Shown: in pieces, positions 20,901 to 42,942 of the stretch
Position numbering within the stretch: the first letter of the stretch is position 1
Layout: each line of letters opens with the position of its first letter
Virus record (IMG/VR): IMGVR_UViG_3300042893_000777
Location: 1-46,316 of that record
DNA from: a virus
Length of the DNA stretch: 46,316 nucleotides
Direction: 5' to 3' (one strand)
Translations under genes and position numbers: made by a program
The notes under the pieces: generated by a model
Told to the model about the DNA's origin: nothing
Databases searched by the model: none
Seen by the model: only the letters and a program-made list of their open reading frames with translations

Positions 20901-21892
20901 AAATTTTTCTTCTTAAATTGTTCTTCAATATTTGTAATTAATTTATTTAAATTTTCTTTTAATTGTAGGACTGTTATTTCCGGAAAATCATCATCAATTA
21001 ATCCTTTAGCTTTATATTCGGTATAAAGCTCTTTCATTTTCTGTAAACCTAAACTACTATAAGTTTCTTCAGTTTTAGTTGGTGTATTTGATGTACTTGA
21101 TGTTGTTGTTTTTTGACTTTGTATATTAACCCTATACATAGATGGAACCGCATACATCGCACCCCAACTAACATCAGCCATTATAGTATATTTGTAAGTA
21201 TAAAATTGAGTATTAATTCTAAAATTATGTGTTGATGGGTCAAAAGACGCATTAAATGTGTGTAACATTAATGGTAATCTAATTGCCTTTCCTAAATAAC
21301 CTTTAACCGTTAAATAAAACAGTGGGTATGGTAATTGAAAAAATGCGGCGTATGGTGAATTGTCTCCGGCTTCAAATAAAGCACGTCCTTTAACATCCTC
21401 CATTGTAATACTTATAACCGGTAAAAAATCGGTACCGTATTCAATATTAATTTGATTAATCCCTAATAATCCAGTGTCAACCGATCCTGGATTTCCATTA
21501 GACATAATTGTTTGACTAAGATAATAGTCATCACTTAAATCTGGATTTTGTGTAATTCTTACATTTGGTTGATTAACCCCAACCCCTTTTAAAGCTCCTT
21601 TACCTGTTAGTTCATCGGTGTAACTATTATCTAAAAACTGTTTAAATCCTGGATTTAAAAAATTTATTTTACCAACTGACACTGTTCTAATAGCTTCTGA
21701 TTGTGGTACCCCAACCGCAAGTTTTGTTCTTGGTAGTACCGAACATTCTAAGTTAGCATAAAAAACAAGATCTTCTTGTTTTATTAGGCGGTCTTTTACT
21801 TTACCCTCATTGTCTATTACTTTGTTGGGGTCTATTACTGATATGTTTTGATAATCAAATTCTACTAAAATATTTTCATTGTTATCTACCAT
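14957..21892 (-). CDS. Giant baseplate hub-like protein
   Basis: 2311 aa, far larger than T4 gp27 (391 aa) or gp5. The N-terminal 270 residues (INQINIEYGTDFLPVISITM, YPLFYLTVKGYLGKA) and a segment near 1865-1925 (MYFNLRNIPMFSGPYMITSV, then SHRISENGFDTSFKG) look like the two halves of a hub/gpD-type tube-like fold split by about 1500 inserted residues. The region about 2035-2150 has NNNYGYVTLDNNFGGSATYF and KPFASFTSFDSFLEFFIGKY, reminiscent of Bacteroidota phage peptidoglycan-hydrolase domains, so a tail-lysozyme function is plausible. A Thr/Asn-rich linker (about 1945-1985) precedes it. The start overlaps the gp53-like gene by 11 nt, indicating coupling. Hub assignment is by pattern and position. 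Confidence 0.65.
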   Translation of the reverse strand: MVDNNENILVEFDYQNISVIDPNKVIDNEGKVKDRLIKQEDLVFYANLECSVLPRTKLAVGVPQSEAIRTVSVGKINFLNPGFKQFLDNSYTDELTGKGALKGVGVNQPNVRITQNPDLSDDYYLSQTIMSNGNPGSVDTGLLGINQINIEYGTDFLPVISITMEDVKGRALFEAGDNSPYAAFFQLPYPLFYLTVKGYLGKAIRLPLMLHTFNASFDPSTHNFRINTQFYTYKYTIMADVSWGAMYAVPSMYRVNIQSQKTTTSSTSNTPTKTEETYSSLGLQKMKELYTEYKAKGLIDDDFPEITVLQLKENLNKLITNIEEQFKKKNLNILNEVDKYNENLGEYSSVVYLYAGQDSWSRKYLDYNNIFVKNDTDKTELYKFKPEYSSAQEQITAIGKLTGLIQKYNNLLINNTAIGKDISVPIDTKMFFTTAGIGDINVRETYQKRAGFQLTGTSTSTEYLDYKKKLNDEILNSVNLQEYQGLIFLTGYKSFEDAIKKIDEKYKTKKQEVEEKLTKEISDQFASKTNGLGFQPTIRNVLAVFFAQGEAFLRMLDDVHTKAWDLRDDPLRRSAIFSTSSTVQSVDVKNGDLNSPVYPWPQIIGENLIEGKEKYTLKYPGDDDIANKLRAYVPEIWPEVQFVEEFLRGYTEKESPKFSVGDTNNGLSKPRRFSFNATEFTIGNDVYQNTEEVKFFYEIYERMYLSSFYSKLNRDSVKQYNVQTYVSESETTNLVTALGDDNPFLIQKIKEYNINSAIYGAFLKHISNSGEGQSWQNFIRGEFNTPYIKNDVDTSFYFYKNSILLDNTALPNVGLTNEDTVVNYFGGNIVNDEYDLTDLYPLTNLDWCKDYLANGKGIQSKVDTFKTSDTLQYDKSIKSIKNKNVLPITNFNYKKSVFDQSLNLQNLTTFYKNRKIKDQYATEGNLYYDNYNGGVYSDQTTSMFNTPYFANAIQKGVNEFKYSLIEKSPYNIAAYLFLNSLPLATLRDKYRIYNSDGSVTNASYILPSLKKFGAIHEMPYAWVLKYGSIWYRYKKWKEDNIDILDDVWKDTDYIGNYDPLFSASTTQYQVQIDGQPYDIVLDGTNTVGTNDKTTITTGFYPTLLDDFNFFLQGQNLFNQSTNLAGTCYIDGTFMEVLSINSNTLTPGAIISGSNINNYTTIITQISGTTGGQGAYYVTPSQSYPFVDPITSTQPFIVTNQYVLGYSSQSIQNTLNSNFRMVLSPTALINKSQGFDNGNNNRSLTIYPWSCYAVSPDPNYIYTLPSLGSNVNQVNQECFNNAGNLKIEVSNNPAIHNGSTRLFWQSPNYGYFDNSKVQKPQPDEYIRDVFNNTEEQENFGIFGDPDKYTKITELFTTFSPEILNKFEEQFLLFSQSVYDFESNLNPRNPNVNEEESYENFQGLMRAMFKTDNPKNLTGSALINTIKESQKNNIQKILESFMGYNVVFKYGNPSNFDKKMFYTFSNDFIEDPYTWGGYVQNSPNALPYAGGGITLAQSKTQYPITWNTLETYVGFSEIPKLEYTDNGSYITDFFIDMDMEFSENNIKLYHPMIKLYATQKLADPTLNLSKFYTLMTQYISKGEQYINLILDNTLVGARAKLPNVKITANSTGVKFKEYDGDLVRLDTWESFKAINDKWIAGADLRSKTLFEDVLLVDRASRDVGQKIFVDIFKLKTQIESMNYANNMLGIINTILIENRFLSFILPSYANFYNVQDVSKTPNPRPEGTLEFANSLFGTHLNVDYRDTTAKYLCVYSYVPSDKLAMNNNVDYKFRDDAFDLRRATDNPLLESQNGKTNWDKSNKVVGFNVDFGPQNQQIFKQMDIGQNPGLPTTESLQMLNQMANQYRNRGGASQSVSLYNVYRNRSYECEIDMMGCALIQPLMYFNLRNIPMFSGPYMITSVSHRISENGFDTSFKGQRQPFYSIPAIDNLLQSLSATILTTLKERVKEEDKKNTITETNNNIKTATEATNKTADPKVVPTTNQDCSTLLNTSYNTYTATTPVNTSITIPEAYSKIVSAVNAITTLSNDDKLKFIDFIFMTIWTYSISGNNFTGQNNNYGYVTLDNNFGGSATYFNNSYFCGSSSNLTQKPFASFTSFDSFLEFFIGKYKSNVSNLPVRNVGDNTQIQTYITGMSKSIMDTWPTNGSVWSTMTEQPQKQKIQNTTDAFTYIQNNQPKPTPIPEPNPPIFLVEPKYTNFSPPLLESYTIKLNPTDGKRKIRFVEMLLLGGSKAPCVNSGGQAEVSEYIINGDTFTMDIQEILDEFGCTSGQPMQNYKGTYYAKFSLTSFPILSNGEPDNSRKEYYKTFSLTFSF

Positions 21893-22206: not shown

Positions 22207-25200
22207 TTAATTAAAAGTTACTTTATCGTTAAACGTTTCTCTATTGTTATTTATGTTAAAATCACTATAAAGTTGTTTTAATAATTTTTGATTATCTTTG
22301 TGTTCTGGTTTTTTAGCTGTTGTATATGATAATTTAGTTTCAAACGTATCAATTTTAAAGTTTAAATATTTTTGATATTCAGGACTTTTTTCAAAATCCG
22401 TAAATATTTTTTTCTCCGCATCAAACTCTTTAACAAATAAAACTCTTAATTCTTCACAAACTTCTCTAATATCTTTTTCCATAAAAGTATTAAGTTTTAC
22501 TTTTTCAGTTATTAAACTTTCCACAAATGATTTAAATTTAGTATCATCAGTAAATATGTTTGACATCACAAAATAGAATCTACTTGTTTCTGGAGTTAAA
22601 AATTCGTCCTCATAAATAGGGTAAAAATTATCATCACCATTTAAAATATTTTGGTCTAAAATGTATTTTTCTGTTAGTAATAATATATATTCGTACGTAT
22701 CAACACCAACTTTTAGTTGGTAATTATCTAAAATTAAGTCAAAAACATCAGCGTCTGTTTGTCCACTGTCAACCAGAGTATACACCTTATATTCTCCAGT
22801 TTCTAATTTATAACCATCAACTTTATGATTAACTAAATCCAATTTTCTAAAAGTTTGGATATAATCCTCTTGGTTTTTTGTTATTTCATTTTGAGATCCT
22901 ATTGTGTCATTATTTAAATCCGCATCTCTTAATTCAACTATTTCTTTTAATTTATTTTTTAATTCTCTAATTGCGGAATCAGGAAAATTTAAAGTATTAC
23001 TTTTAACTTTTAATATAATCGGATTTGTATCGTCTTTAACGTCTTTAGCGGCCTTACTAACCAATTTTAAAATTCTATCTTCCACATTATACGATTTACC
23101 AAAGATATCTGTTGGTATATTATTACCATCATATTGCGCCAATTCACCCGCAACATATCTTCTTTGTTTAGTAACCAATTGTACCATAGGGTAATTTGTT
23201 ACTTCATTCATTGTTTTAAGTTGGTTAAATATTGTTTTAAAATAATTATTAGTTTTATCTGACAATTCTTTAAACACTGCAGTATATTCTATTTCACCTT
23301 CTTCATAAGAACCATTATCAAATAAGTTAGTTGACAATATATTACCAATCGTACTACCACCTTTTTGTGGAACAACATTATTTATCTCAATATTAGAAAT
23401 TGGTAAACTATCATCCCCCTTTCTTGATATTATTTTAGAGACCAAATCTTTATCCTTATCTTTTGTGCTTTCGGTTGATTCCGCTCTTTCGTCATATACT
23501 TCAGTATTTGCGTAATAATTAAATGATAATGCATTTTGTAACGTTTGTATTGGGTGAGCTAATCCGTGACCACCAATAAAATCAAATCCCAAACTAATTT
23601 TTGCAATCATAGGTTGGATACCAATTCCTTCCGGATTTATATCATAAACTAATGGTTCATATGTTATTGATAATTGGTTAGGTATAATCTTAGTATGGTA
23701 GAAATCTCCAATTCTTAATACTAATACCGGTGGTGTTCCAAATGATGTATTTTTTGCATCATTATATTTAGGTTTACCGTCTGGTCCAATAACAGGAATT
23801 GTTTGTCCCGGTCTAACACATTGTTGTAAAAAGGTTAAACGAGCATTTAATCCTTCAGGTGTTGTTGAGTGAAATGCTGGGCTAAAATATTTGATTTTAT
23901 CTTTAATACTGGAATATATCATTGGGTTTGTTTCCTTAATAACCTCAAAATAATCACATTCAGAGAACAAATACCTTAATACTTTTTTAGATATTCCTTC
24001 TTTAATTTCCTTATTAACCTTTGGTGGTGGGGGTGGTGGGGGTGGTGGTATATTACCACAAATTTCATTACAATCAGTTTCTCCAGTAAATGTGTCAACT
24101 AAATCTGTTTCCGCTGCCGGCACACATTTTTGACCAGTTCCAAGACATTTCCATCTTTTAACCGATGTTGATTCACATTTACACAATTCTTTTGTTGCGT
24201 AAATACCATTAGGAACTTCTTTACAGACATTATCAATACAAGACCAACCCATTACTGGTTTTTGACAACCACCACTAGATAAACATTCTTGTTCGGTATC
24301 AAAAGTTCCGTCCTCAGCCTGAGCACATTGTCCTGGTGAAAGACATTTATATTTAAGTTTTGGTTTTTCTTTTTTTATGGTGGCTTTTATAACATTAATA
24401 CCCACTCTACGACAAACCATTGCGGGAAAGCTATACCATTGTGAGTTGTTAGTTACATAACCCAAATTAACGTCTATAATATTTTTTGTACAGTCAACTC
24501 CAACTCCTCCTCCTTTGTTAGATTGTGGTATTATAAACTTTTCTCCACTTGAGTTAAATGTAAAAATTATTTTCTTTTCGGTTTCTAATTGACTTATTTT
24601 TATGTCCCCAATTGTTTGTTTTCTAAACCAATTAAGAACAACGCTATTTCTTCTTTTTGATAAATTAACATTGTATGATGGTGATGCTGGTGCGGAAGCC
24701 GAACCTTGTAATTCAAGTGTTACAGTTCCTTCTTTATCTATTATAATTTCTTTTAATTTAGGTAATAAATCATTAGTTATAGTTTTAAAATTTCCAATAA
24801 CCACATCATCAAAGAATGGAATTACGGCACTTTTTTTAAAAGTATCGCTACCACTTTTAACTTTTGCCGGTGCCGAATTACCAGCATAAGTTGGTTTTCT
24901 TCCTAAATATTTGTCATACCAAGATTGGTAATCTGAAGTTAGTTCTGTCTCCCAAGAACCTGTACCAGTAGGATAGTCATTATCAAAATAAAACCCAAAC
25001 CCTTCAAATTGTTTTAAAATATCCGTTTCAATTTGTTCAGAAGAATCTGAAGTTGCAGTTGTGTTGTTCGCTTGGGTTCCTCCACCATTTTCCGTTGTTA
25101 CTTGATTACCGGTACTAAATGTTGGATCATCAGACCCATTGATTGGTGGTGCCTGATTTTTAGGTATTTCATTTAAAATATCATATTTTTGTTCCTCCGT

Positions 25201-27507
25201 TAATCTAGGGCTTTGTAATAATTCTTGATATGTATAAAGTTGGTTTACCGGAATAGTATTAAATTTTGCTGCTAAATCATATAAATCATATTTAACACAA
25301 CCCGCAAAAAACGAATCCATAATTGAATCAACTTGTGCTTCAGACAAATTCGCTAACTGTTTTTCAATAATTGTATTCATAGCCGCAGGACTATCAACAA
25401 CAACCAACCAACTTAAACTTCCACTTCTTGTTGTATTTTTATAAGTATATATAGGTTCTGGCCTTCCTAAAAATGATGTTGGGTTCCAACTAGCGGTAGA
25501 AGATTCATTAAAGGAAAGTGCATATGGTGGAAACCACATAATTCTTCCTCCATTTGGTCCTCTTTCACAAACAGGTAACTCATCATAAGTAAACCCTGGT
25601 TGGTCGGATGTTCTCCACGCCAAGTTCTCAAGTGAGAACATATATTTTTTTACCTTACCATCTCTAATGTTAGTGGACTCAATACCTCTAAGTGGTGCAA
25701 TATTTAAATTATATGTATTATCAAATACCGAATTGTTAAATCTTCTACCTGATGTTGTTATACCATCTGTTTTTTGTAAATCAGCAAATGTGTAGTACGG
25801 AGTGTCTTTTTGAAATACTCTACAGTATTCCATACCAACTTCGGTACCATCAATACCTATTGTATTTTCATTTGTTACACTATCGTAATAAGCAATAACC
25901 TGAGAACCTTTTGTCATTTCTTTGTATCCGTCGTTGAATACTTTTGAAATTTGGTTGATTGCATTTCCAACATGTTTTAATCTTTTTTCACCACTAACGT
26001 TATCTGCGGATTCAACTAATCTTTGGGTATTATCTAATATTGATCCTCCTTTAAATTCAAAATCATCCGATTGTGTATCACTATTAAATTCCCCTTTAAC
26101 CGAATTGTATTCGCTATCAATTTTAACCGGGTCTCCACCAGGTTTAACTTTAAACCCTAAATTATCTTTATATTTTGGTGAGGTCCAAATAAATTGTCCG
26201 GCAATTCCTCCTTGATTGGAAATAGATTTCCCTTTTAATCCAAATTGGATTTTATCAATATTTCCTTCATATAATTGTCCTAATTCTGCCGGACCATATA
26301 CTGGAGTTTCTTGTTGTCTTCCAAATCTATCTGAAGGAACTTCGTTTGCTGGTGAATTAATCGTTGATGGTTCTGCTTGGTCACTACCAACGTAATAACC
26401 TCCACCTTTATCACTATTACCTAATAAATTAGAAATAGCATTAGTTATCCCAAGAACAAGACCTCTTTCGTATTTTGGTCTGTAAAGGTTATAATCTAAA
26501 CTTTTAAATAAAACAGATTTTTGTCCATAACCAGTATTTGCAACAAATAACTCTGAAGGGTTTCTATATTTATTAAGAATTGACCCTAAAGCACCTCCGG
26601 TTAAATTATTTGTAACATTAAGAGCGTTTTCTGTTTGTGGTGATATTATTTGAAACTGTTGGTTAAAATAATCTCCAGGTATGAATGAAACGGGGAAATA
26701 AGTCCCACTTAATCTATTTGCAAATGAAACTGCGGCAAGTACCGGGTTTTCTGGAACCGTAATTTTCCAGTTTTTAGTAATTAAGGGTTGTTGTCCTGTC
26801 GCAACTAAAGACGCTTCAAAAGGGTCTTGTAATGCGTCTAAACCAACACTACCTAAAGTCGCTTGATATATTTCAGTATTTATTCTCTCAGTAAACGCAT
26901 CTTTTAATTTTTTTGCGGCAATTTGAGCTAAAAATGAATCTTGAGATAAAGAACCTGCCGAACCTGATGGGTCGTTTGAGAATAATATATCGTAAGGACT
27001 ATATACCGAATATAAAAAGTTAATTGGTGCCGATACAAATAAGTTATCATTTGTTACAGAATATGGTAAAAAATATTGTAAATCACTAATATTATCAGTT
27101 AAAATAATAAGGTCTTTATACCCACTTTCCGGACCATAAATATTTTTTATGTATGCGGTATCAATGTAGAATTCATTAAGTAAATCAATCTGAGCATCAT
27201 CTTGACCATACTCTCCTTGATTAGGAGTTACCGGTAATGGTGGATTATTAGTGTTAATAATATTACTATATCCACCTTCAGGACCATATTCGTTTAATGT
27301 GTATAGATTATTTGCCTGTACGGTTGTTCCAATCAATTCATTAGGTGAATCTATTACCGAAATGTCTTGGAGTGGTGATATCTCATAGGTTAAATTACCT
27401 GCCGGTGGTGTATATGCCCCCGGAACATTATATGGTTGTAAATTTCTCGCCAATAATGTGTCCCTAAATGACGACGATAAATTAAATGATAATGTACTTT
27501 CTGGCAT
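22207..27507 (-). CDS. Large baseplate protein with OmpA-like and Cys-rich repeat domains
   Basis: 1766 aa, no full-length family recognised. An OmpA-type peptidoglycan-binding domain is visible at about residues 890-990: TVTLELQGSASAPASPSYNV followed by NLSKRRNSVVLNWF, matching the N-x-x-L-S-x-x-R signature. Residues about 1049-1150 hold three Cys repeats (YKCLSPGQC..., WSCIDNVCKE..., WKCLGTGQKC...), ending in a nine-Pro run. Near 1270-1310, GDFYHTKIIPNQLSITYEPL and KISLGFDFIGGHG resemble the tube-initiator domain of gp48/gp54-type proteins. The last 350 residues are charged and helical. Position between tape measure and gp53 supports a baseplate role; the OmpA and Cys modules suggest contact with the cell wall. 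Confidence 0.6.
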   Translation of the reverse strand: MPESTLSFNLSSSFRDTLLARNLQPYNVPGAYTPPAGNLTYEISPLQDISVIDSPNELIGTTVQANNLYTLNEYGPEGGYSNIINTNNPPLPVTPNQGEYGQDDAQIDLLNEFYIDTAYIKNIYGPESGYKDLIILTDNISDLQYFLPYSVTNDNLFVSAPINFLYSVYSPYDILFSNDPSGSAGSLSQDSFLAQIAAKKLKDAFTERINTEIYQATLGSVGLDALQDPFEASLVATGQQPLITKNWKITVPENPVLAAVSFANRLSGTYFPVSFIPGDYFNQQFQIISPQTENALNVTNNLTGGALGSILNKYRNPSELFVANTGYGQKSVLFKSLDYNLYRPKYERGLVLGITNAISNLLGNSDKGGGYYVGSDQAEPSTINSPANEVPSDRFGRQQETPVYGPAELGQLYEGNIDKIQFGLKGKSISNQGGIAGQFIWTSPKYKDNLGFKVKPGGDPVKIDSEYNSVKGEFNSDTQSDDFEFKGGSILDNTQRLVESADNVSGEKRLKHVGNAINQISKVFNDGYKEMTKGSQVIAYYDSVTNENTIGIDGTEVGMEYCRVFQKDTPYYTFADLQKTDGITTSGRRFNNSVFDNTYNLNIAPLRGIESTNIRDGKVKKYMFSLENLAWRTSDQPGFTYDELPVCERGPNGGRIMWFPPYALSFNESSTASWNPTSFLGRPEPIYTYKNTTRSGSLSWLVVVDSPAAMNTIIEKQLANLSEAQVDSIMDSFFAGCVKYDLYDLAAKFNTIPVNQLYTYQELLQSPRLTEEQKYDILNEIPKNQAPPINGSDDPTFSTGNQVTTENGGGTQANNTTATSDSSEQIETDILKQFEGFGFYFDNDYPTGTGSWETELTSDYQSWYDKYLGRKPTYAGNSAPAKVKSGSDTFKKSAVIPFFDDVVIGNFKTITNDLLPKLKEIIIDKEGTVTLELQGSASAPASPSYNVNLSKRRNSVVLNWFRKQTIGDIKISQLETEKKIIFTFNSSGEKFIIPQSNKGGGVGVDCTKNIIDVNLGYVTNNSQWYSFPAMVCRRVGINVIKATIKKEKPKLKYKCLSPGQCAQAEDGTFDTEQECLSSGGCQKPVMGWSCIDNVCKEVPNGIYATKELCKCESTSVKRWKCLGTGQKCVPAAETDLVDTFTGETDCNEICGNIPPPPPPPPPKVNKEIKEGISKKVLRYLFSECDYFEVIKETNPMIYSSIKDKIKYFSPAFHSTTPEGLNARLTFLQQCVRPGQTIPVIGPDGKPKYNDAKNTSFGTPPVLVLRIGDFYHTKIIPNQLSITYEPLVYDINPEGIGIQPMIAKISLGFDFIGGHGLAHPIQTLQNALSFNYYANTEVYDERAESTESTKDKDKDLVSKIISRKGDDSLPISNIEINNVVPQKGGSTIGNILSTNLFDNGSYEEGEIEYTAVFKELSDKTNNYFKTIFNQLKTMNEVTNYPMVQLVTKQRRYVAGELAQYDGNNIPTDIFGKSYNVEDRILKLVSKAAKDVKDDTNPIILKVKSNTLNFPDSAIRELKNKLKEIVELRDADLNNDTIGSQNEITKNQEDYIQTFRKLDLVNHKVDGYKLETGEYKVYTLVDSGQTDADVFDLILDNYQLKVGVDTYEYILLLTEKYILDQNILNGDDNFYPIYEDEFLTPETSRFYFVMSNIFTDDTKFKSFVESLITEKVKLNTFMEKDIREVCEELRVLFVKEFDAEKKIFTDFEKSPEYQKYLNFKIDTFETKLSYTTAKKPEHKDNQKLLKQLYSDFNINNNRETFNDKVTFN
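24024..24052. repeat. G-rich simple repeat encoding poly-Pro
   Basis: A run of GGTGG/GGGGG units on the plus strand encodes nine consecutive Pro in the minus-strand 1766-aa protein. It marks the boundary between the Cys repeats and the helical region. Confidence 0.8.
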
Positions 27508-31155: not shown

Positions 31156-32115
31156 TTACTTTGATTTAATTTTCAATATTGTTCTCTTAATTAAACTTTC
31201 AAGCATAACTTCTTCATCACTTTCTTCTTTATTAGCTTCTATATGAATTTTATTATATCCTCCTTCTGAAGTATCATAAATAATAAATTTAACTTCTGGA
31301 TACATATTAGATAATTCATTTTCTACATAATTAATCATAGCTTTAACATTTTTAGGATCATCATCAGAAAATCCTAATGAAGTATTAACATACTTACCAC
31401 CCATAATTAAATCATCATACTTTGAAATAAAATCTAAAAGTGCAATTTTTTTAGATTCTTCCGGGTTTGCCGCACCACCGCTAACTTCCACACCAAATTT
31501 TTCTCCAAACTCTTTTGAGGACACCGGATAGTAATCGCCCTTTTCGTCCAGGTATAAATCAATTATTTGATTATTATCTAATGTGTTTAATTTTCTTAAA
31601 AAGTTATCCGAAAAAATTTCCTCATGTTTAAAAGAATTTTTTATATTTTTTACCATTATTTGTTTTTCATCCGGAGATAAAACCATATAGATAAATAATT
31701 TAACCCCTTTTTTAAGTACGTTTGGATTGTGTCCTCTTGCGGTAATTATTGAGAATGGGTTTGCATAAATTAAATTTTCTTTAAACTTTTTAAAACTTGG
31801 GGACTTTCGATTCTTTTCAATAGCAATTTTGGTATCAGTTAAAAATGTTTCGGAATGTCTAAAATCTCTAAAAGCCTCATCATCAAATCCCACAATCGTA
31901 TCGCCTTTATATTCAAAAGGTTCTTTTTCAATAAGATGTCTGTATTCTGCAAAGTCATCAGTTGGCATCCCAACAACACTACCCTTATCATTTTTTAAAT
32001 ATATTTTAGTTGGCATTTTCAAAATGTTATCATCCCAATCAAAACCATATAATCTAAGGTTTTTCTCCTCAACCATTTCATTAATGATTTCTCTTGCCAA
32101 ACTTTTGTAATTCAT
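31156..32115 (-). CDS. HAD-like phosphatase of unknown substrate
   Basis: 319 aa. Motif I is GFDWDDNIL (D26, D28) and motif II is FSIITARGHN (T125), the HAD pattern; the region DLYLDEKGDYYPVSS may carry later acidic ligands. The C-terminal part (about 215-295) looks like a separate alpha/beta segment. The N-terminal helix (SLAREIINEMVEEKN) and the C-terminal tail (VMLESLIKRTILKIK) are amphipathic with L/I-x-E motifs like those in the 39 kb region. It sits between the sheath and tube genes, where T4 has no such enzyme. Substrate cannot be told. Confidence 0.7.
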   Translation of the reverse strand: MNYKSLAREIINEMVEEKNLRLYGFDWDDNILKMPTKIYLKNDKGSVVGMPTDDFAEYRHLIEKEPFEYKGDTIVGFDDEAFRDFRHSETFLTDTKIAIEKNRKSPSFKKFKENLIYANPFSIITARGHNPNVLKKGVKLFIYMVLSPDEKQIMVKNIKNSFKHEEIFSDNFLRKLNTLDNNQIIDLYLDEKGDYYPVSSKEFGEKFGVEVSGGAANPEESKKIALLDFISKYDDLIMGGKYVNTSLGFSDDDPKNVKAMINYVENELSNMYPEVKFIIYDTSEGGYNKIHIEANKEESDEEVMLESLIKRTILKIKSK

Positions 32116-32186: not shown

Positions 32187-35100
32187 TTAGATATTATCAA
32201 AAGACGCTCCAGTCGGAGTGATATAGAATGTGATGTCAATAAATTCAAGTGACTTAGTTGGTTTAATATAAATCTTACCTGTCATTTGGTTTTTATCTAA
32301 ATCAGCAGTATCACTTGAAACTGTAACTCGGAAATCGTAAAGACCTCTGTCTCTTCTGATTGCATCTAAAATAGGATTAACTGCATTTAAGAAATCTTGT
32401 CTTACTTGTTGGTCGTTTTGGTCAAACAATAATCTTACGGATACTGCTGAAATCAATTTACGAGCTTGTAATAACAATCTTCTTACGTTAATTCTATCAA
32501 GTGCTGACTCTCTAACTTGAAGAGTTTTATTACCCCAAATTACTGTACCTACATCTGCAAAAGTCGCAATTGGGTTAATTCTTCCAAGATAAAGAACATC
32601 TCTATCTTCTTGAGTCAACTTCTTACGAGCTTTTATTGAGTTAACAATACCTCTTGTGTAACCAGCCGCTGCAAACCAAGGGAATGCAATGTTGTCAGTT
32701 AACGCCAAGTTTCTTGTTACCTCGGCCGTAGCTGGGATATAGATTTGAGTGTTATTAACAGTATCTCTAGTTAATACCCAAGGATAATATGTACAAGTAT
32801 AGTTAGAATCAATTCCGGTTTCTTCCAAAATATCAACCGCCTCTTGTGGGTATATTAATCCGTCTTGACCTGTAGTTGTAGCAACAAACATATTGTGATC
32901 TGGTAATGTTGTGATATATAATGAATCCGCTCTACTGTTCTCAACCAAATCAATCGCTCTTTCAACTAAGTCATTGTTATTTTGAATGTCGATACCAGGA
33001 GTTACAAACAAGTTAATGTTAACCGCTTCTGGGTTTGCAAATGTTCTTTGAGCTAATAGGTATGCGTAATAGTCAGTATTACCGTATTCGGTAGTTCCGT
33101 CTCCAATACTAATTTGTTTGAACAATCCATTTCCTTTACCATTAGGGAATCTTAAAGATGGACAAGCTCCGTTTAAGAAACCAGTTCTACCTAACGTATA
33201 TTTATCGGCATTTGTTCTAAATTCTCTATAGATATCCCATCCGTCAAACCCACCATAAGCCATTACCGTGAATTTTCTAGAGTTTAATCTGTAGTAAGGA
33301 TTCTCTGGATTTGTAGGTTCTGAAGAGAATGTTGTTACTCCTACTTCATAAGCTGGTGTTCCACTTGACGCAAAACCTGATGATATTGTAATACCACTAG
33401 CTAATTGGTCCATATGGAAACCTTTAGTTTTAAATGACCATTCAAATCCTTCATCCGTACATAAATTTAAAGGTTTTCTTTTTCCTTTATATTGGAAGAA
33501 GTCAGAATCATAACCCCAATAAGAACCTAAACCTAAGTATGTTCTTCTAACATTATCTCCTGGGCTGATATAAGCATCATCACCTCCACTAGTTAAACCA
33601 AATGGTGGGTTAAATACTGTTTCACCAGGTAAGAAATATTTAGTTTTATAAACTGGGAATGGAGATTTACTTCCAGGATACTCTCTAAATTCGTAACCTT
33701 GGAATCCACAAGGGATTGAATCAATAGGAGCATCCTCATTCATTTCAACCATAATATATTTAGAGTTCAATGTATACTCACCATCTAATGTACCAATTTT
33801 TTTAGCGATAAAGTTATTTTCTGAAGGATTCATTGAACAGTTTGTAAATTTCTCAATTACAACTGGATTTGAATCAGTATCAAAATAATCTCTTACTAAA
33901 ACAGTAAATGTTTCATTATTAAATGATAGGTCAGCTAATGAAATTTTAACTTCGGTATTAGCGGTATTACCATCAGAGATTGTATAAAATTTAAACATAT
34001 TATAAACTTTAGTACCTCTTAGTTCAGATACAACCCAAGGGGTTGCTGGGGATTGGAATTTATCTAGATACCACCCAATTGAACTAAAGTCATTACTTTG
34101 AGCTCCTTCTGTAGACACTACTTCGGCACTTAAACCTCTAATATAACCTTTACTCCAAGCATAATTTAATAAAGTTTGGTAAGTCTCTTCAACCATTAAA
34201 GGAACTTGAGTTCTTGGTTTTTCAAAATTACCTCTACCAAATACTTTATTGATATTTTGTGCGTCAGATGAGCTTAAAGAAACTTCAAAACTAAAGTTAG
34301 TCCCTTCATAGTTAGTTGCATTAATTCCAAAAGATAAGAATGGATTTTTAATAACCCCTGAATATTCTCCAGTCATATCATAAGTAACGTCAGTAACTCC
34401 AGTTATTTCATAAATCGGATTAGTTCCATCACTATATGGTGAATTACCTCTTGACCTTAATGTTACAACTATTAAATCATCGTATTCTGTAAATGAAGTA
34501 CCCGTATAGTAATATAACATACCAACTACAGTACCTGAATAACAGTAAACTGGTGCAGGAACCGTTGTTGTTGTTGTGGTAATAGGGGTAGGTGTAACAC
34601 AAGGATTTGTTGTTGTTGTTGTGGTTGTGCCCGGAAAATGTGTTGTTGTTGTTGTAACTGGGTTAAGTAATGTTAAACCAGAAACAGTTGTAAAGAATGA
34701 AAATCCTGAATACGAACTGTTACCATTATTTGTAAATAACGCATAAAACCAAGAATCATTATAAGGGGACGCTGGGTCACAATCCTCAAAAGAAACATTA
34801 TCAACTGCAAATACGTTTGTTGCTGCGGTAAAACCACCTGACGTTAATGTATTATAATCTGATTGTGGTATAGAACCAAAATATCTAATTGTTTCATCTT
34901 CAGCATAAACATTATTACTTGTAATAACATCGGAAACCATTCCGTTTATTTGTGTTTGTAATGTAGATAAATCTCCATCAAATTCTTCATATTGTGTTGT
35001 CAATATGTTTTGGATTGGACTTGGGAAGTTACTATAATAAGTAACTTGACCAACTGTGTTTGTACAAGCACTGAACCGAACTGAAATTGGAAGTTCCTTT

Positions 35101-35528
35101 CTAACCAAACAAATCGGATCACAAGGAGCTGAAGGTGTAGTTCCACCACTAAAACACGAATAATCTAATGTTGAAGGATCTAAATTTGCTTTAGTTACGA
35201 TAGACCAAGATGGTCCCGCATCATAACCAGACAATCCTAAGATTCTAGTCACAAATAATTGGTTTGATTGTTGTAAATACGCTTTTGCTATATATGCTGC
35301 CTCATATTTTGGTATTTGCGTGTTTATAAATTTTTCAGGTGTTGTTCCACCGAAATAAGATTGAAATTCGTCGTAGTTTCTTACAAAAATAGGTTCAAAT
35401 GCAGGACCTTTAATTGCTTCTCCAACAATTCCTAAAGTCGTAACACCGACGCTTTGAGCAACAAAACTCAAATCAACTTCGGATGTATAGACCCCTGGGG
35501 ATACAAAAACTTTACTATTAGTAGCCAT
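32187..35528 (-). CDS. 18: Tail sheath protein, T4 gp18-like, with large insertion
   Basis: 1113 aa, against 659 aa in T4 gp18. The N-terminal VFVSPGVYTSEVDLSFVAQS and GIVGEAIKGPAFEPIFV and the C-terminal domain (TREDRDVLYLGR-like region, FADVGTVIWGNKTLQVRESA, RRLLLQARKLISAVSVRLLF) are classic sheath signatures. The extra length is in the middle; residues about 289-325 carry several runs of Thr broken by Pro/Gly, flanking a small Cys-containing segment, likely a surface-exposed linker. A TATTTAT motif precedes the gene and a terminator follows, so it is expressed as a single unit. It forms the contractile outer tail. Confidence 0.9.
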   Translation of the reverse strand: MATNSKVFVSPGVYTSEVDLSFVAQSVGVTTLGIVGEAIKGPAFEPIFVRNYDEFQSYFGGTTPEKFINTQIPKYEAAYIAKAYLQQSNQLFVTRILGLSGYDAGPSWSIVTKANLDPSTLDYSCFSGGTTPSAPCDPICLVRKELPISVRFSACTNTVGQVTYYSNFPSPIQNILTTQYEEFDGDLSTLQTQINGMVSDVITSNNVYAEDETIRYFGSIPQSDYNTLTSGGFTAATNVFAVDNVSFEDCDPASPYNDSWFYALFTNNGNSSYSGFSFFTTVSGLTLLNPVTTTTTHFPGTTTTTTTNPCVTPTPITTTTTTVPAPVYCYSGTVVGMLYYYTGTSFTEYDDLIVVTLRSRGNSPYSDGTNPIYEITGVTDVTYDMTGEYSGVIKNPFLSFGINATNYEGTNFSFEVSLSSSDAQNINKVFGRGNFEKPRTQVPLMVEETYQTLLNYAWSKGYIRGLSAEVVSTEGAQSNDFSSIGWYLDKFQSPATPWVVSELRGTKVYNMFKFYTISDGNTANTEVKISLADLSFNNETFTVLVRDYFDTDSNPVVIEKFTNCSMNPSENNFIAKKIGTLDGEYTLNSKYIMVEMNEDAPIDSIPCGFQGYEFREYPGSKSPFPVYKTKYFLPGETVFNPPFGLTSGGDDAYISPGDNVRRTYLGLGSYWGYDSDFFQYKGKRKPLNLCTDEGFEWSFKTKGFHMDQLASGITISSGFASSGTPAYEVGVTTFSSEPTNPENPYYRLNSRKFTVMAYGGFDGWDIYREFRTNADKYTLGRTGFLNGACPSLRFPNGKGNGLFKQISIGDGTTEYGNTDYYAYLLAQRTFANPEAVNINLFVTPGIDIQNNNDLVERAIDLVENSRADSLYITTLPDHNMFVATTTGQDGLIYPQEAVDILEETGIDSNYTCTYYPWVLTRDTVNNTQIYIPATAEVTRNLALTDNIAFPWFAAAGYTRGIVNSIKARKKLTQEDRDVLYLGRINPIATFADVGTVIWGNKTLQVRESALDRINVRRLLLQARKLISAVSVRLLFDQNDQQVRQDFLNAVNPILDAIRRDRGLYDFRVTVSSDTADLDKNQMTGKIYIKPTKSLEFIDITFYITPTGASFDNI
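34555..34660. repeat. GTT/TTG simple repeats encoding poly-Thr
   Basis: Three runs of GTTGTTGTTGT-like repeats on the plus strand encode Thr runs in the sheath protein, separated by short Pro/Gly/Cys spacers. Such tracts are prone to length change. Confidence 0.8.
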
Positions 35529-35552
35529 TGTCTTTAAATTGTTTAATCATTT

Positions 35553-35570
35553 ATTTTTAATATAAATATT
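35553..35570 (-). promoter_or_regulatory. TATTTAT-type candidate promoter of the tail-sheath gene
   Basis: The minus strand reads AATATTTATATTAAAAAT, 24 nt before the sheath ATG at 35528. Confidence 0.5.
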
Positions 35571-35603
35571 AGTGTTTTTTGTAAAAACTTTACATATAAG
35601 AAA

Positions 35604-35618
35604 CTATTTATATTTTGG
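35604..35618 (+). promoter_or_regulatory. TATTTAT-type candidate promoter of the RHH gene
   Basis: The plus strand reads CTATTTATATTTTGG, 29 nt before the ATG at 35648; it diverges from the sheath motif 33 nt away. Confidence 0.4.
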
Positions 35619-35647
35619 TAAGATTTTATTCTTCCTTTTTTCTACCT

Positions 35648-35812
35648 ATGGATAAAGACACTAAAAAGATTAAAAATTTAAAGATTTCTGTAGAATCCCA
35701 TGATATACTAAAGAAGTATTGTGATAAACGTGGAATTAAAATGTATAGATTCCTTGAAAATCTTATAATTGAGAGGTGTAAAGAAAAAAAAGATATCTAT
35801 GGGGAAAATTAA
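35648..35812 (+). CDS. Small ribbon-helix-helix-like protein
   Basis: 54 aa from the ATG at 35648 (MDKDTKKIKNLKIS). The frame is open from a GTG/TTG-type start at 35615, but that would lie over the promoter motif. The pattern KNLKISVESHDILKKYC (strand and helix 1) then MYRFLENLIIERC (helix 2) fits Arc/MetJ-type DNA-binding proteins. It is divergent from the sheath gene and could regulate it or itself. Its TAA stop overlaps the stop of the opposing gene within the sequence TTAA. Confidence 0.6.
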   Translation: MDKDTKKIKNLKISVESHDILKKYCDKRGIKMYRFLENLIIERCKEKKDIYGEN

Positions 35813-36847: not shown

Positions 36848-37360
36848 TTATAAACCTTTAAATTCGTTAGGACCGACAGGGGCCGCAATTATTGTTCTAT
36901 AAAACGGACGATAACCTTTGTATGTGTGTTTATAGTCAGAAGTTACTCGACCATCATTTACAACCGAATAATATCTAACAAAAGTTTCAGTATCGTAATA
37001 ACCAATATAATCACCAAAAGAAATCTCAACACCTAAATCTTCCAATGTTTTATTATAAACTGAAATGGTAATATTACCAGGTTCAACTTGGTCCATTTTA
37101 GTTGACCCAAGAAACTTATTTTCTGGAGCAGCAATTTGTACAAATGCGTTAAACTCAATTGGAGGTAAGAATTTAATCCCATCTTCTAATGTTTCACCAT
37201 AAACATCGTCAGTTTTAATTTTATTTCTATCAACACGGTATAGTATGCAAGTGATGTTCATATCACCCACTAACCATTCTTGACCCATTTCAATTTCTAA
37301 ATTAAAATCATTATCTCCAAAAAATTTACCCAAACGAGTAATAGGAACTTTATTTGACAT
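36848..37360 (-). CDS. Putative neck / head-tail connector protein, gp14-like
   Basis: 170 aa (T4 gp14 is 256). Starts MSNKVPITRLGKFFGDNDFN; the C-terminal part GDYIGYYDTETFVRYYSVVN and GYRPFYRTIIAAPVGPNEFK resembles cyanophage-type neck proteins. It runs 1 nt from the gp15-like start, as neck and completion genes do in T4. No catalytic motif. The call rests mainly on position and a faint pattern. Confidence 0.42.
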   Translation of the reverse strand: MSNKVPITRLGKFFGDNDFNLEIEMGQEWLVGDMNITCILYRVDRNKIKTDDVYGETLEDGIKFLPPIEFNAFVQIAAPENKFLGSTKMDQVEPGNITISVYNKTLEDLGVEISFGDYIGYYDTETFVRYYSVVNDGRVTSDYKHTYKGYRPFYRTIIAAPVGPNEFKGL

Positions 37361-37367
37361 AAAATAC

Positions 37368-37386
37368 GTATTTATTGATAAATATC
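37368..37386 (-). promoter_or_regulatory. TATTTAT-type candidate promoter of the neck genes
   Basis: The minus strand reads GATATTTATCAATAAATAC, 7 nt before the ATG at 37360; it is almost identical to the plus-strand copies at 39200 and 39664. Confidence 0.55.
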
Positions 37387-39199: not shown

Positions 39200-39218
39200 A
39201 ATATTTATCAATAAAAAC
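39200..39218 (+). promoter_or_regulatory. TATTTAT-type candidate promoter
   Basis: Reads AATATTTATCAATAAAAAC, 3 nt before the ATG at 39222. Confidence 0.5.
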
Positions 39219-39221
39219 ACT

Positions 39222-39608
39222 ATGAAAAGAATTATAAGATTGACCGAATCAGATTTAACAAGAATCGTTAGAAGAGTTATTAGAGAAAACAAAAATCCTG
39301 GTGATGTTTTAGACTGTGTTGCAACCGCAGCAGATTTAAATTACAATGACCTATTTAATCTTGCTCCATGTGCAAACTTATTAACAGGAACCCCAACAAA
39401 GGAAGGTATTGAAGCTTGTCTTGAAGGGGCTAAGGGGGTTATAGATGCTAAAACTAAAAAAATGACATTTTTTGAAAAGGCTCAATATGTTGCAAATCTT
39501 GCATTAAAATCAGCGGGGTGTCTTGGGGCAGGTACTGGTGGTATGACATTACCAGGATATGGTGGTACAAACATCGATATTAAAGAATCGAGAAGAAGAA
39601 GATATTAA
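39222..39608 (+). CDS. Small protein with LTESDL-type N-terminal leader
   Basis: 128 aa, function unknown. The N-terminus MKRIIRLTESDLTRIVRRVI is an amphipathic leader of a type I recall in many hypothetical proteins of Bacteroidota phages; LTE-S fits the L-x-E cleavage pattern of T4-type prohead proteases. The middle has four Cys (DCVATAADL, APCANLL, EACLEGA, SAGCLG) in a helical segment, and the C-terminus is Gly-rich then basic (IKESRRRRY). It has its own promoter motif and a terminator follows. A role as a small packaged or virion-associated protein is inference. Confidence 0.6.
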   Translation: MKRIIRLTESDLTRIVRRVIRENKNPGDVLDCVATAADLNYNDLFNLAPCANLLTGTPTKEGIEACLEGAKGVIDAKTKKMTFFEKAQYVANLALKSAGCLGAGTGGMTLPGYGGTNIDIKESRRRRY

Positions 39609-39625
39609 AAAACACATAACATTAA

Positions 39626-39659
39626 ATAAGCCCCACCATAAAGTGGGGTTTTTTGTTTT
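39626..39659 (+). terminator. Rho-independent terminator
   Basis: CCCCAC (39631-39636) pairs with GTGGGG (39643-39648) around CATAAA, followed by a run of six Ts and more Ts after one G. Confidence 0.85.
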
Positions 39660-39677: not shown

Positions 39678-41792
39678 ATGGAAGTTAAAGTAAAACATAT
39701 TAAGTGTGATATGAACACGAAGGATAAAGAATTGATGAATAAATTTATGAAATTCTTACAAAAACATTACCCATTAAAAAACAACATTACAGTTATTTTC
39801 ACCGGAGAAAGATTTGGTGATATGACAACTGGAAGTAGAACAAGTAATTCCGAATTAAAAATACTAACAAAAGGTAGATTAAATAGAGACGTTTCAAGAA
39901 CCTTAGCACACGAGTGGGTTCATGAGTGGCAAAGATTAACAAAAGGAAAAGAAAGAGGTCCAGATATTGGTGGTGAAAATGAGGATGAGGCAAATGCTGA
40001 AGCCGGGTCAATTATAAAGAAATTTGAGAAGACAAATCCGAACGAAAAAGAAATGATGTATGAAGGAATTAATAATAAAATAAAATTATTAAATGAATCC
40101 ATTCTTTTAACCGAAAAGTTAAATATTAGAAATAATTTTTTAACTGAGATGAAAAAGATAGGTATTGAAAAATTACCTTATTCTTATTCCGCAATGAATC
40201 AATTTGTTGACCCAGAAACTATGGATATTCATTATAATAAACATTATAAAGGGTATGTTAAAAAGTTGAATGATGCTTTATCAAATAAAAAAGGTGAGGT
40301 GGAATTAGAAGATATTATTAAAAATATAAGTAAGTACGACACTAAAGTTAGAAATAATGCCGGTGGGGCGTTTAATCACGCATTGTTCTGGAAAATGTTA
40401 TCCCCAAAAAAACAATTACCAAAAGGTGAGATTTTAAGAAGGATAAATAATCAATATGGGAATATAAAAAAATTAAAGGACGAATTTAATAAGATTGCAA
40501 CAGAAAGATTTGGATCCGGATGGGCATGGATAGTTCTGACAAAATCAAATAAATTAAAAGTAATATCAACCTCAAACCAAGATAACCCACTTATGAATGT
40601 TATTGATGGTGGAAAACCATTATTAGGTCTTGATTTGTGGGAACACGCATATTATTTAAGATATAGAAACAAAAGAGACGAATACATTAAAAAATTCTGG
40701 AATCACATTAACTGGGAATTTGTAAATGAATTACTTGAAACCACAACGACAAAAAAATTAAATGAATCAATAAATAATGAAAAATTATTAAACGAAGCAA
40801 AACAGGTGTTTCCTTTGGCTACCAGAACTTTCAAAAAGTTAATTAACTCTTCTTACTCAGAATGTGGTGTTGGGAAATACAGAACCGGGTGTGTTGGTAT
40901 CATTGAAACAAAAAAATGCACCACAGAACGTGGAATTCTTGGTGGTAATTTTTCTGAAAAGAAATATGGTGGAAATGGCAATTGGTCAATTATTAATAGA
41001 TTTGACACAAATAGTGTTGTTCATAAAGAGATTGGAAAAATTTGGGTTGAGGAAACTGATGGGTTAGATGATTTTAAAACTTGGATACTAAACAATCTAA
41101 ATGAATTAGTTGGTAATAGCGGTAAATACACTAAAAGGTTGGTTGATATAAATAAAAACACTATTTTAACCGGTAGAGAAAATGAAAGTTACGCAAAAAC
41201 GGTTATAATAAACACCTTTAAATTAAACCCTGATGATGAAGGTATTTCCTGGAATATAATTGAAAGGTGTGCTGGAGATATTAGAGATAGAAAATTAGGT
41301 CAAGATTTTGATGTAATAATTGATAAAACTTCTTATTTCGTACAAGTTAAACCAGTTGATTATTCGTTGATTAAAAAAATTGGGTCTGAAAGAGGGTATT
41401 ATTATAAAGTCCCTTCTTGGCATAACCACAATAAATATAAAGAATCTAATGTTGATATTATTCTTTACGTTGATAGGCCTAAAGATAAATATATAATGTT
41501 TAGAAACGATTACTCAAGAATACAAACTGTGGCAAATCCATCAACATTCCCTAAGTTTTTTGTGTATTATTATGAAAATCCAATACACACAAATATGGAA
41601 TTTGAGGTAGACCAAGAACCAGAAAAAATTGGTGTTAAACCAAAACTTGCAAGGAATAAAGAAAACGAAATAGATTATTATAAAGAAAGGATTCAATACT
41701 ACCAAGAACTAATTGATAAACTTGGTGATAGTGAAGAAATTACAGAAAGAGTTATTCGTTTAGAAAAGAAACTATCTTATTTATTAAACTAA
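39678..41792 (+). CDS. Metallopeptidase - Mn/Fe superoxide dismutase - nuclease-like fusion protein
   Basis: 704 aa with three domains. Residues 1-128: a zinc-peptidase-like domain with H78-E-W-V-H82 and a candidate third ligand in EDEANAEAG (102-110). Residues 165-350: a full Mn/Fe superoxide dismutase, with LPYSYSAMNQFVDPETMDIH, metal ligands H185, H234 (NHALFW), D319 and H323 (DLWEHAYY), gate residues H189/Y193, and Q301 in NQDNPL, as in the Mn type. Residues about 376-704: GRENESYAK, GQDFDVIID (D543/D545) and YFVQVKP (Q556, K558), a PD-(D/E)xK-like nuclease pattern, then a coiled-coil end. The linkers hold LLNES, LLTEK, LNES and LLNEA, like T4 prohead-protease sites. It may be packaged and cut, which is inference. 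Confidence 0.75.
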   Translation: MEVKVKHIKCDMNTKDKELMNKFMKFLQKHYPLKNNITVIFTGERFGDMTTGSRTSNSELKILTKGRLNRDVSRTLAHEWVHEWQRLTKGKERGPDIGGENEDEANAEAGSIIKKFEKTNPNEKEMMYEGINNKIKLLNESILLTEKLNIRNNFLTEMKKIGIEKLPYSYSAMNQFVDPETMDIHYNKHYKGYVKKLNDALSNKKGEVELEDIIKNISKYDTKVRNNAGGAFNHALFWKMLSPKKQLPKGEILRRINNQYGNIKKLKDEFNKIATERFGSGWAWIVLTKSNKLKVISTSNQDNPLMNVIDGGKPLLGLDLWEHAYYLRYRNKRDEYIKKFWNHINWEFVNELLETTTTKKLNESINNEKLLNEAKQVFPLATRTFKKLINSSYSECGVGKYRTGCVGIIETKKCTTERGILGGNFSEKKYGGNGNWSIINRFDTNSVVHKEIGKIWVEETDGLDDFKTWILNNLNELVGNSGKYTKRLVDINKNTILTGRENESYAKTVIINTFKLNPDDEGISWNIIERCAGDIRDRKLGQDFDVIIDKTSYFVQVKPVDYSLIKKIGSERGYYYKVPSWHNHNKYKESNVDIILYVDRPKDKYIMFRNDYSRIQTVANPSTFPKFFVYYYENPIHTNMEFEVDQEPEKIGVKPKLARNKENEIDYYKERIQYYQELIDKLGDSEEITERVIRLEKKLSYLLN

Positions 41793-41814: not shown

Positions 41815-42942
41815 ATGGCAATTATTAGTGAACCAGAAAGAAGTAAACTTTATACTAAAGTTAAACACGTACTTGGGGCTCCTTTAAGAAGTATTGAACT
41901 TGAGGACGAACAAATGGATACTTTACTTGAATTTTCAATTGACGAGTATTCTCAATACGTGCAGGATTGGTTGATTGAATCTCAATGGACCGCACTTAAT
42001 AACCTTAATCTTGATACACAATCTTTAACTAAAGCTTTTACAACAAGAAGTTTAGATTATGAAACAAGATATACATACGCTTATTCTAAGATTGTTGGTT
42101 TACAAGCCGGAGGTGATTGGGTTTTAAAAAAGGATTATATTCAATTAGTACCTAACCAACAAATATATGAAATTCCTGCAGGTAGGGAACTTAACGAATT
42201 ACTTTGGTTTACTCCAACAACATTGAATAACGCAATGTTTGATCCTTGGTCTTTTGGATCTTTAGGTGCTGGTGGTGGTCTTGGAGGAGGTGGTGGTCTA
42301 GCACAGATGGGTAATATGGCAGGTAGTTACTTTATGATGCCGGCTTTTGATATGTTACTTAGAATGCAAGAAATTAACATACAAAGAAGAATGATTGCCG
42401 GTGATTTAACATACAGAGTAACCGCATTACCTGGAGGTAAAAAGGCAATTCACTTAATGAATACACCAGGGGGTAAATTTGATTTTGGTAATGGAACCTT
42501 AACAAGAGGTCGTGTTTGGTATTGGTATTATGATGATAACGAAGATAGAGATAAATGTTTAGCTGATAATCCAGATATTATTAAATTACCTTCTGATGTA
42601 CCTTTTGATAAAATTAGTTGGAATGATTTAAATAACCCAGCCCAAGTTTGGATTAGGAGATGGTTTATTGCTTATTGTAAAGAAACATTGGCAAGAGTAA
42701 GAGGTAAGTTCAGTGGTAATTTAAAAACCGGTGAAGGTGGTGATTTAACAATGGATTATGCGTCTTTAGCGACTGAGGCAAAAGATGAAAAAACTAAATT
42801 AGTTGATGAACTTATAGGAGCTGAGGGTCGTCTAACAAGGTTAAAACCTGAAAAGGTTATGGAAAGAGAAGCTCTTTTAGCGGAAAACTTAAACAAACAA
42901 CTTAAGTTTAGAGCAATGCCAAGACAAATTTATGTAATATGA
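41815..42942 (+). CDS. Putative neck protein, T4 gp13-like
   Basis: 375 aa (T4 gp13 is 309). The N-terminus KVKHVLGAPLRSIELEDEQM and LLEFSIDEYSQYVQDWLIES fit the helical start of gp13-type head-completion proteins. Toward the C-terminus NPAQVWIRRWFIAYCKETLA and RVRGKFSG are typical of the family. A Gly-rich, likely flexible insertion lies at about residues 148-166. Its stop overlaps the next start as ATGA, so the pair is translationally coupled. Confidence 0.6.
   Translation: MAIISEPERSKLYTKVKHVLGAPLRSIELEDEQMDTLLEFSIDEYSQYVQDWLIESQWTALNNLNLDTQSLTKAFTTRSLDYETRYTYAYSKIVGLQAGGDWVLKKDYIQLVPNQQIYEIPAGRELNELLWFTPTTLNNAMFDPWSFGSLGAGGGLGGGGGLAQMGNMAGSYFMMPAFDMLLRMQEINIQRRMIAGDLTYRVTALPGGKKAIHLMNTPGGKFDFGNGTLTRGRVWYWYYDDNEDRDKCLADNPDIIKLPSDVPFDKISWNDLNNPAQVWIRRWFIAYCKETLARVRGKFSGNLKTGEGGDLTMDYASLATEAKDEKTKLVDELIGAEGRLTRLKPEKVMEREALLAENLNKQLKFRAMPRQIYVI

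Follow-up and report, generated by a model that had tools for sequence, protein, structure and literature searches.

Why would a phage carry several unrelated enzymes in one polypeptide chain, separated by segments crowded with Leu-x-Glu? The gene that raises this question encodes a 704-aa protein and lies within a viral contig of 46,316 nucleotides (IMG/VR record IMGVR_UViG_3300042893_000777), analyzed here at its full length and referred to as the window. Judged by its sheath, tube, baseplate, UvsX-like recombinase, helicase, and PolB genes, the window is a fragment of a T4-like myovirus, which probably infects Bacteroidota. The initial annotation, made from the window alone, described the protein as a metallopeptidase, a superoxide dismutase (SOD), and a nuclease, packaged as one chain and released in the capsid by a gp21-like prohead protease. 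We compared it with ∼120 related loci (51 first relatives from IMG/VR, with more from module searches), which yield 35 distinct complete proteins at 90% identity; all come from uncultured, related phages, and their sequences are not independent.

By its Pfam matches, the central segment (residues 164–351) is a complete Fe/Mn SOD, with Sod_Fe_N at 2e-20 and Sod_Fe_C at 2e-38, both above cut-off. The motifs with the His/His/Asp/His metal ligands are present in 35/35 relatives. The closest PDB entries are bacterial MnSODs, and the nearest SODs in GTDB are mostly from Bacteroidota, namely Ferruginibacter and other Chitinophagaceae (46–53%). SOD matches above 35% among GenBank “phage” records were left out of the comparison; these records are for the most part unannotated or resemble bacterial ones, and their SODs are bacterial.

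Residues 1–129 are best described as a zincin-like domain, by motif and by a weak fold match, with inconsistent family matches. The sequence HEWVH at residues 78–82 (39909–39923) is followed by EDEAN (39981–39995), and both the HExxH and the EDEAN-type Glu are kept in 35/35 distinct relatives. An AlphaFold model of this domain (pLDDT 82.8) most closely resembles, in Foldseek, the YbeY metallohydrolase (probability 1.00, E 4e-3), a weak fold match with TM-scores of 0.44/0.48; lower-ranked matches include metzincins and an M61 peptidase. YbeY is a metallo-endoribonuclease. Pfam matches to the domain are weak and mutually inconsistent, and PDB profile searches returned chance-level matches or none. 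The C-terminal 328 aa, for which Pfam and PDB gave no match, form a candidate PD-(D/E)XK nuclease at the level of motifs. GQDFD...VQVKP at residues 541–559 has a PD-(D/E)XK/Mrr-like signature, and an upstream Glu, the GxD, and the QVKP are invariant across 10 divergent homologs, a combination that we take to be the Mrr-type pattern. The AlphaFold model of junction 2 plus this domain has a pLDDT of 38.9, from an alignment of six sequences. Of the original description, the 704-aa frame and the SOD are borne out, the latter by Pfam, whereas for the metallopeptidase and the nuclease the evidence consists of motifs and a weak fold match, without family hits.

Table 1. Positions of the putative polyprotein gene, its predicted segments, and neighboring features in the window
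Feature	Position	Strand	Basis
Whole ORF, putative zincin–SOD–nuclease-like polyprotein, 704 aa	39678–41792	+	ORF call, relatives
N-terminal HExxH zincin-like domain, residues 1–129	39678–40064	+	Motifs, fold model
Junction 1 with predicted cleavage sites	40065–40148	+	Conservation, motif enrichment
Fe/Mn superoxide dismutase, predicted mature start M158	40149–40733	+	Pfam, PDB matches, metal-ligand motifs
Junction 2, with LNES (40758–40769) and LLNEA (LNEA 40788–40799)	40734–40805	+	[LI]xE motifs
C-terminal cargo, candidate PD-(D/E)XK (Mrr-like GxD...QxK) nuclease	40806–41789	+	Invariant motifs
128-aa gene with capsid-targeting-like tag, starts MKRIIRLTESDLTRIVRRVIREN	39222–39608	+	Tag recurs in 6 relatives
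Terminator-like hairpin in the gap between tagged gene and polyprotein gene	39628–39651	+	
12-mer TATTTATCAATA directly before the polyprotein start codon	39666–39677	+	Exact copy
Other exact TATTTATCAATA copies	39202–39213; 37373–37384	+; −	Upstream of the tagged gene; upstream of gene 36848–37360
Downstream gene, head-tail adaptor Ad2 family-like	41815–42942	+	phrog_211, 3.8e-9

The four junction motifs quoted in the initial annotation (L138-N-E140-S, L144-T-E146-K, L361-N-E363-S, and L371-N-E373-A) are real, and its description of both junctions as dense in L-x-E holds across 35 non-redundant relatives. Junction 1 contains 120 [LI]xE in 1190 aa against 62.5 in shuffled sequence (z ∼9) and junction 2 contains 58 in 1305 aa against 32.6 (z 5.2), although these z-scores overstate independence because the sequences are related; within the domain bodies the motif is scarcer than in shuffled sequence (176 in 19829 aa against 218, z −3.1). 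Among the spacings and residues tried, the excess is greatest for Glu at the [LI]xE spacing. [LI]xxE (junction 1) and [LI]N (both junctions) are raised too, as a helix of the L-L-N-E type would give, and part of the junction pattern could come from an amphipathic helical linker. The bare [LI]NE count in the window and two relatives is only mildly raised, so the argument rests on position rather than on total number.

We regard strict conservation of P3 and P1 around a free P2 as the stronger point. When junction 1 is aligned on an EMKKIG anchor, 35/35 relatives share two sites with L/I at P3 and Glu at P1; P2 is N, K, T, S, or E at one site and L, T, M, N, or V at the other. In the window protein these are LNE140 (40089–40097) and LTE157 (40140–40148); the second (L155-T-E157-M), at the start of the SOD, had been overlooked. 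The middle site, LTE146 (40107–40115; quoted originally as LLTEK), is not conserved, with Asp in 8/35. Every protein with a third cargo (29/29) has at least one [LI]xE at junction 2, and all six two-domain (zincin–SOD) representatives lack this junction. The L-x-E junction motifs are thus kept in relatives, where their loss had been named as evidence against processing.

Zincin and SOD are constant across the 35 proteins, and the C-terminal cargo is either none or one of at least four kinds. The commonest architecture is zincin–SOD–module B (19/35), followed by zincin–SOD–nuclease (6/35) and zincin–SOD with no third cargo (6/35); the remaining 4/35 carry module X, an additional segment of ∼110 aa, and two of these also have the nuclease. 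Still another C-terminal cargo, which is neither nuclease, module B, nor module X, occurs in L343/L345. The trio of the initial annotation therefore recurs, but as one among several architectures, and from these comparisons we conclude that the third slot of the polyprotein is an exchangeable cassette. Module B (L011:11144–12091 and relatives), with RGxDFEAL...YD...ISCK/ISIK, looks PD-(D/E)XK-type with Ser replacing the usual acid, and has no family match. PDB profile searches with the nuclease and module B gave chance-level matches or none, the nuclease was absent from the GTDB genomes searched, and neither was found among GenBank phages. Module X (LTPVVKxDKTFYV...FGL...ETYNL) is seen in L037, L038, L042, L044, and L359, is doubled in L038, and is mostly preceded by INES.

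The same segments also occur outside the fusion. The zincin is a solo 129-aa gene in two relatives (L349 and L365), and its C terminus, ...KKMYE, falls exactly at the residue matching E129, a Glu found in every fusion. Two proteins without the zincin (L127 and L137) have the order tag–SOD–nuclease–module B, such that junction 1 becomes the SOD N terminus. G015 and its relatives, which form another phage group, encode nuclease and module B individually, with one gene between the two. Separate nuclease genes start with L[NQ]E followed by a second L-x-E, either LVE or LLE, in 11/11 cases, some of them near-identical. Separate module-B genes start with a short tag ending in LNE in 7/7 cases, preceded by IAEQKM in 6/7, and these tags resemble T4 capsid targeting sequences in style. 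The fused protein (P0001) begins MEVKVKHIK and has no targeting tag at Met1; a Met1 tag is present only in the separate-gene or zincin-less relatives.

The gp21-like protease expected in the genome is not encoded on the 46-kb window, but most long relatives encode one: Peptidase_S77 (PF03420) scores above its cut-off in 11 of them, counted as distinct (by record set, 2/14, 6/10, and 3 new). The rest are partial contigs, several of them without a match. In these relatives the S77 gene has the portal gene on one side and the capsid gene on the other, the arrangement of T4, and the major capsid protein is of the gp23 family. Its residue 61, directly after FLINE60, aligns near the mature start of T4 gp23* (its residue 15), so LINE/A is likely a native cleavage site at the capsid propeptide boundary. 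In a 290-kb relative (G016), 17.9% of ORFs have paired [LI]xE motifs within the first 32 residues, compared with 7.5% for interior stretches (p 6e-7), and this N-terminal pairing is strongest for Glu (z 7.3, against 0.3 for Asp).

The 23-aa tag of the gene adjacent to the polyprotein gene recurs in 6 related genomes with 1–10 copies each; a search of GenBank phages, weak for so short a query, found nothing. The element TATTTATCAATA, present in 3 exact copies against 0.08 expected, is possibly a phage promoter element; the T4 late promoter TATAAATA shows no enrichment. Similar TATTTATCA sites are seen before some G016 genes. A 319-aa protein (31156–32115, minus strand) starts with MNYKSLAREIINEMVEEKNLRLYGFDWDDN and has a HAD-like DWDDN motif preceded by an IINE tag, making it a candidate for another packaged enzyme; G016 has a like gene (34847–35746). 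Elsewhere in the window, the baseplate region encodes proteins of 2311 and 1766 aa (14957–21892 and 22207–27507, both minus strand) with almost no family match, and a 1494-aa open frame (3–4484, minus strand), probably for a structural protein, runs off the contig end.

These observations make it likely that the protein is a capsid-targeted cargo polyprotein cut by the S77 prohead protease. During prohead assembly, the L-x-E segments would serve as capsid-targeting sequences within the chain and bring it into the core, and the activated gp21-type (S77) protease would then cut after the Glu of [L/I]-x-E. The predicted products in the head are the zincin (to ∼E129 or E140), a SOD of native length starting at M158, and the nuclease-like C-terminal cargo, and the freed enzymes would be injected along with the DNA. 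The zincin–SOD–cargo order, the start of the SOD after E157, and the end of the solo zincin at E129 all fit such whole-enzyme products. By analogy with T4, the junction segments may serve both targeting and release. As for function, we would guess that the SOD dampens superoxide as infection begins and that the zincin and nuclease act on macromolecules of the host or of competitors; the initial annotation suggested that they could protect the infected cell from oxidative burst and attack host protein and DNA. What we observe is the architecture, its modularity, the conserved sites, and the protease and tagged genes of relatives; that the chain is targeted, cleaved, and injected, and what each enzyme does, we infer.

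Several lines of evidence support this reading, and with it the processing at L-x-E first proposed. The P3/P1 sites match the published gp21 rule, L/I-X-E (PMC9026906), the excess is greatest at the Glu spacing while domain bodies are depleted, and junction 2 accompanies the third cargo only. Nuclease, module B, and zincin exist as separate genes, and the SOD in zincin-less forms. Long relatives have both S77 and the capsid LINE/A site, and paired [LI]xE is enriched at G016 N termini. The gene itself has a tagged neighbor with a shared upstream motif and a neck gene downstream.

The better of two rival explanations, which we nevertheless consider unlikely, is that the protein is packaged and injected as a “polyvalent” protein that remains intact, or that its own zincin cleaves in either head or host, with L-x-E used for targeting only. 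N4 vRNAP is reported to be packaged uncut, auto-processing by zincins has been proposed (Iyer et al., PMC5512222), and the invariant HExxH of the present zincin would favor self-splitting. In T4 IPIII, moreover, Asp at the cut position stops processing but not targeting (PMC9026906). If Asp is enough for targeting, however, P1 would not need to be Glu in every relative at two sites. In addition, the zincin can be a separate gene, L127 and L137 lack it yet keep L-x-E at their other junctions, and separate cargoes have N-terminal L-x-E. Less probable still is an unpackaged, intracellular fusion of a host-derived SOD with two enzymes active during infection, in which the linkers are ordinary charged helices: a SOD is a plausible metabolic gene, this one is closest to cellular Bacteroidota SODs, and the upstream neighbor is a helicase gene, but L-x-E is conserved by residue and spacing, N-terminal tags recur on separate genes, and the locus has a tagged neighbor and a downstream neck gene.

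For the cargo polyprotein cut by the prohead protease, we judge the chances slightly better than even that it represents a phage capsid polyprotein system, in which exchangeable enzyme cassettes with prohead-protease sites between them would bring defined, separate enzymes, including SOD, into the next host. Paired L-x-E tags provide a sequence handle for cataloging proteins that uncultured jumbo phages may inject, and the junctions could be used as natural linkers to load enzymes into phage heads. Injection of a SOD, if real, would point to a role for superoxide in the first minutes of infection.

Parts of this arrangement are known from other viruses. In T4, the propeptides of internal proteins are capsid targeting sequences, gp21 cuts after L/I-X-E, and Alt is cut at both ends (PMC9026906). 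The present proteins resemble the T4 internal head proteins (IPI–III, Alt) in their short L/I-x-E segments, in the S77 protease and gp23-family capsid of relatives (PMC9026906), and in the T4-type N-terminal tags of separate-gene relatives. In contrast to T4 internal proteins, they combine several unrelated enzymes per chain, with internal tags and an exchangeable third cargo. In phiKZ-like phages (SPN3US, phiKZ), the prohead protease processes head and ejection proteins, head proteins are cut after Glu, and many proteins are ejected (PMC5694885); the short x-x-E cut motif with Glu last is shared (PMC5694885), but this is another phage group, the SPN3US motif is A-x-E, and propeptides are removed there rather than cargo–cargo junctions cut. 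Among giant eukaryotic viruses, SOD is one of the virion-packaged enzymes (PMC9405923), although in the Megavirus case it is a Cu,Zn-SOD, not part of a polyprotein and not from a phage. The literature searched, to which most subscription papers do not belong, held no published precedent for a SOD-bearing or junction-cleaved phage protein.

The nearest described idea is that of the polyvalent proteins of phages and conjugative elements (Iyer et al., 2017, PMC5512222), which likewise join disparate enzymes in one phage polypeptide, include a zincin, and are predicted to be co-injected with DNA. The protein described here has at least two disparate domains, a SOD by Pfam and zincin-like and nuclease-like domains by motif; it has no Pfam match to polyvalent domain models, and “superoxide” is not mentioned in that paper (PMC5512222). 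Release in polyvalent proteins is ascribed to embedded zincins or other peptidases, whereas here it would be through the prohead protease. If this is correct, T4 capsid targeting and multi-enzyme injected proteins would be joined in a phage version of the viral polyprotein strategy, with processing by the head protease.
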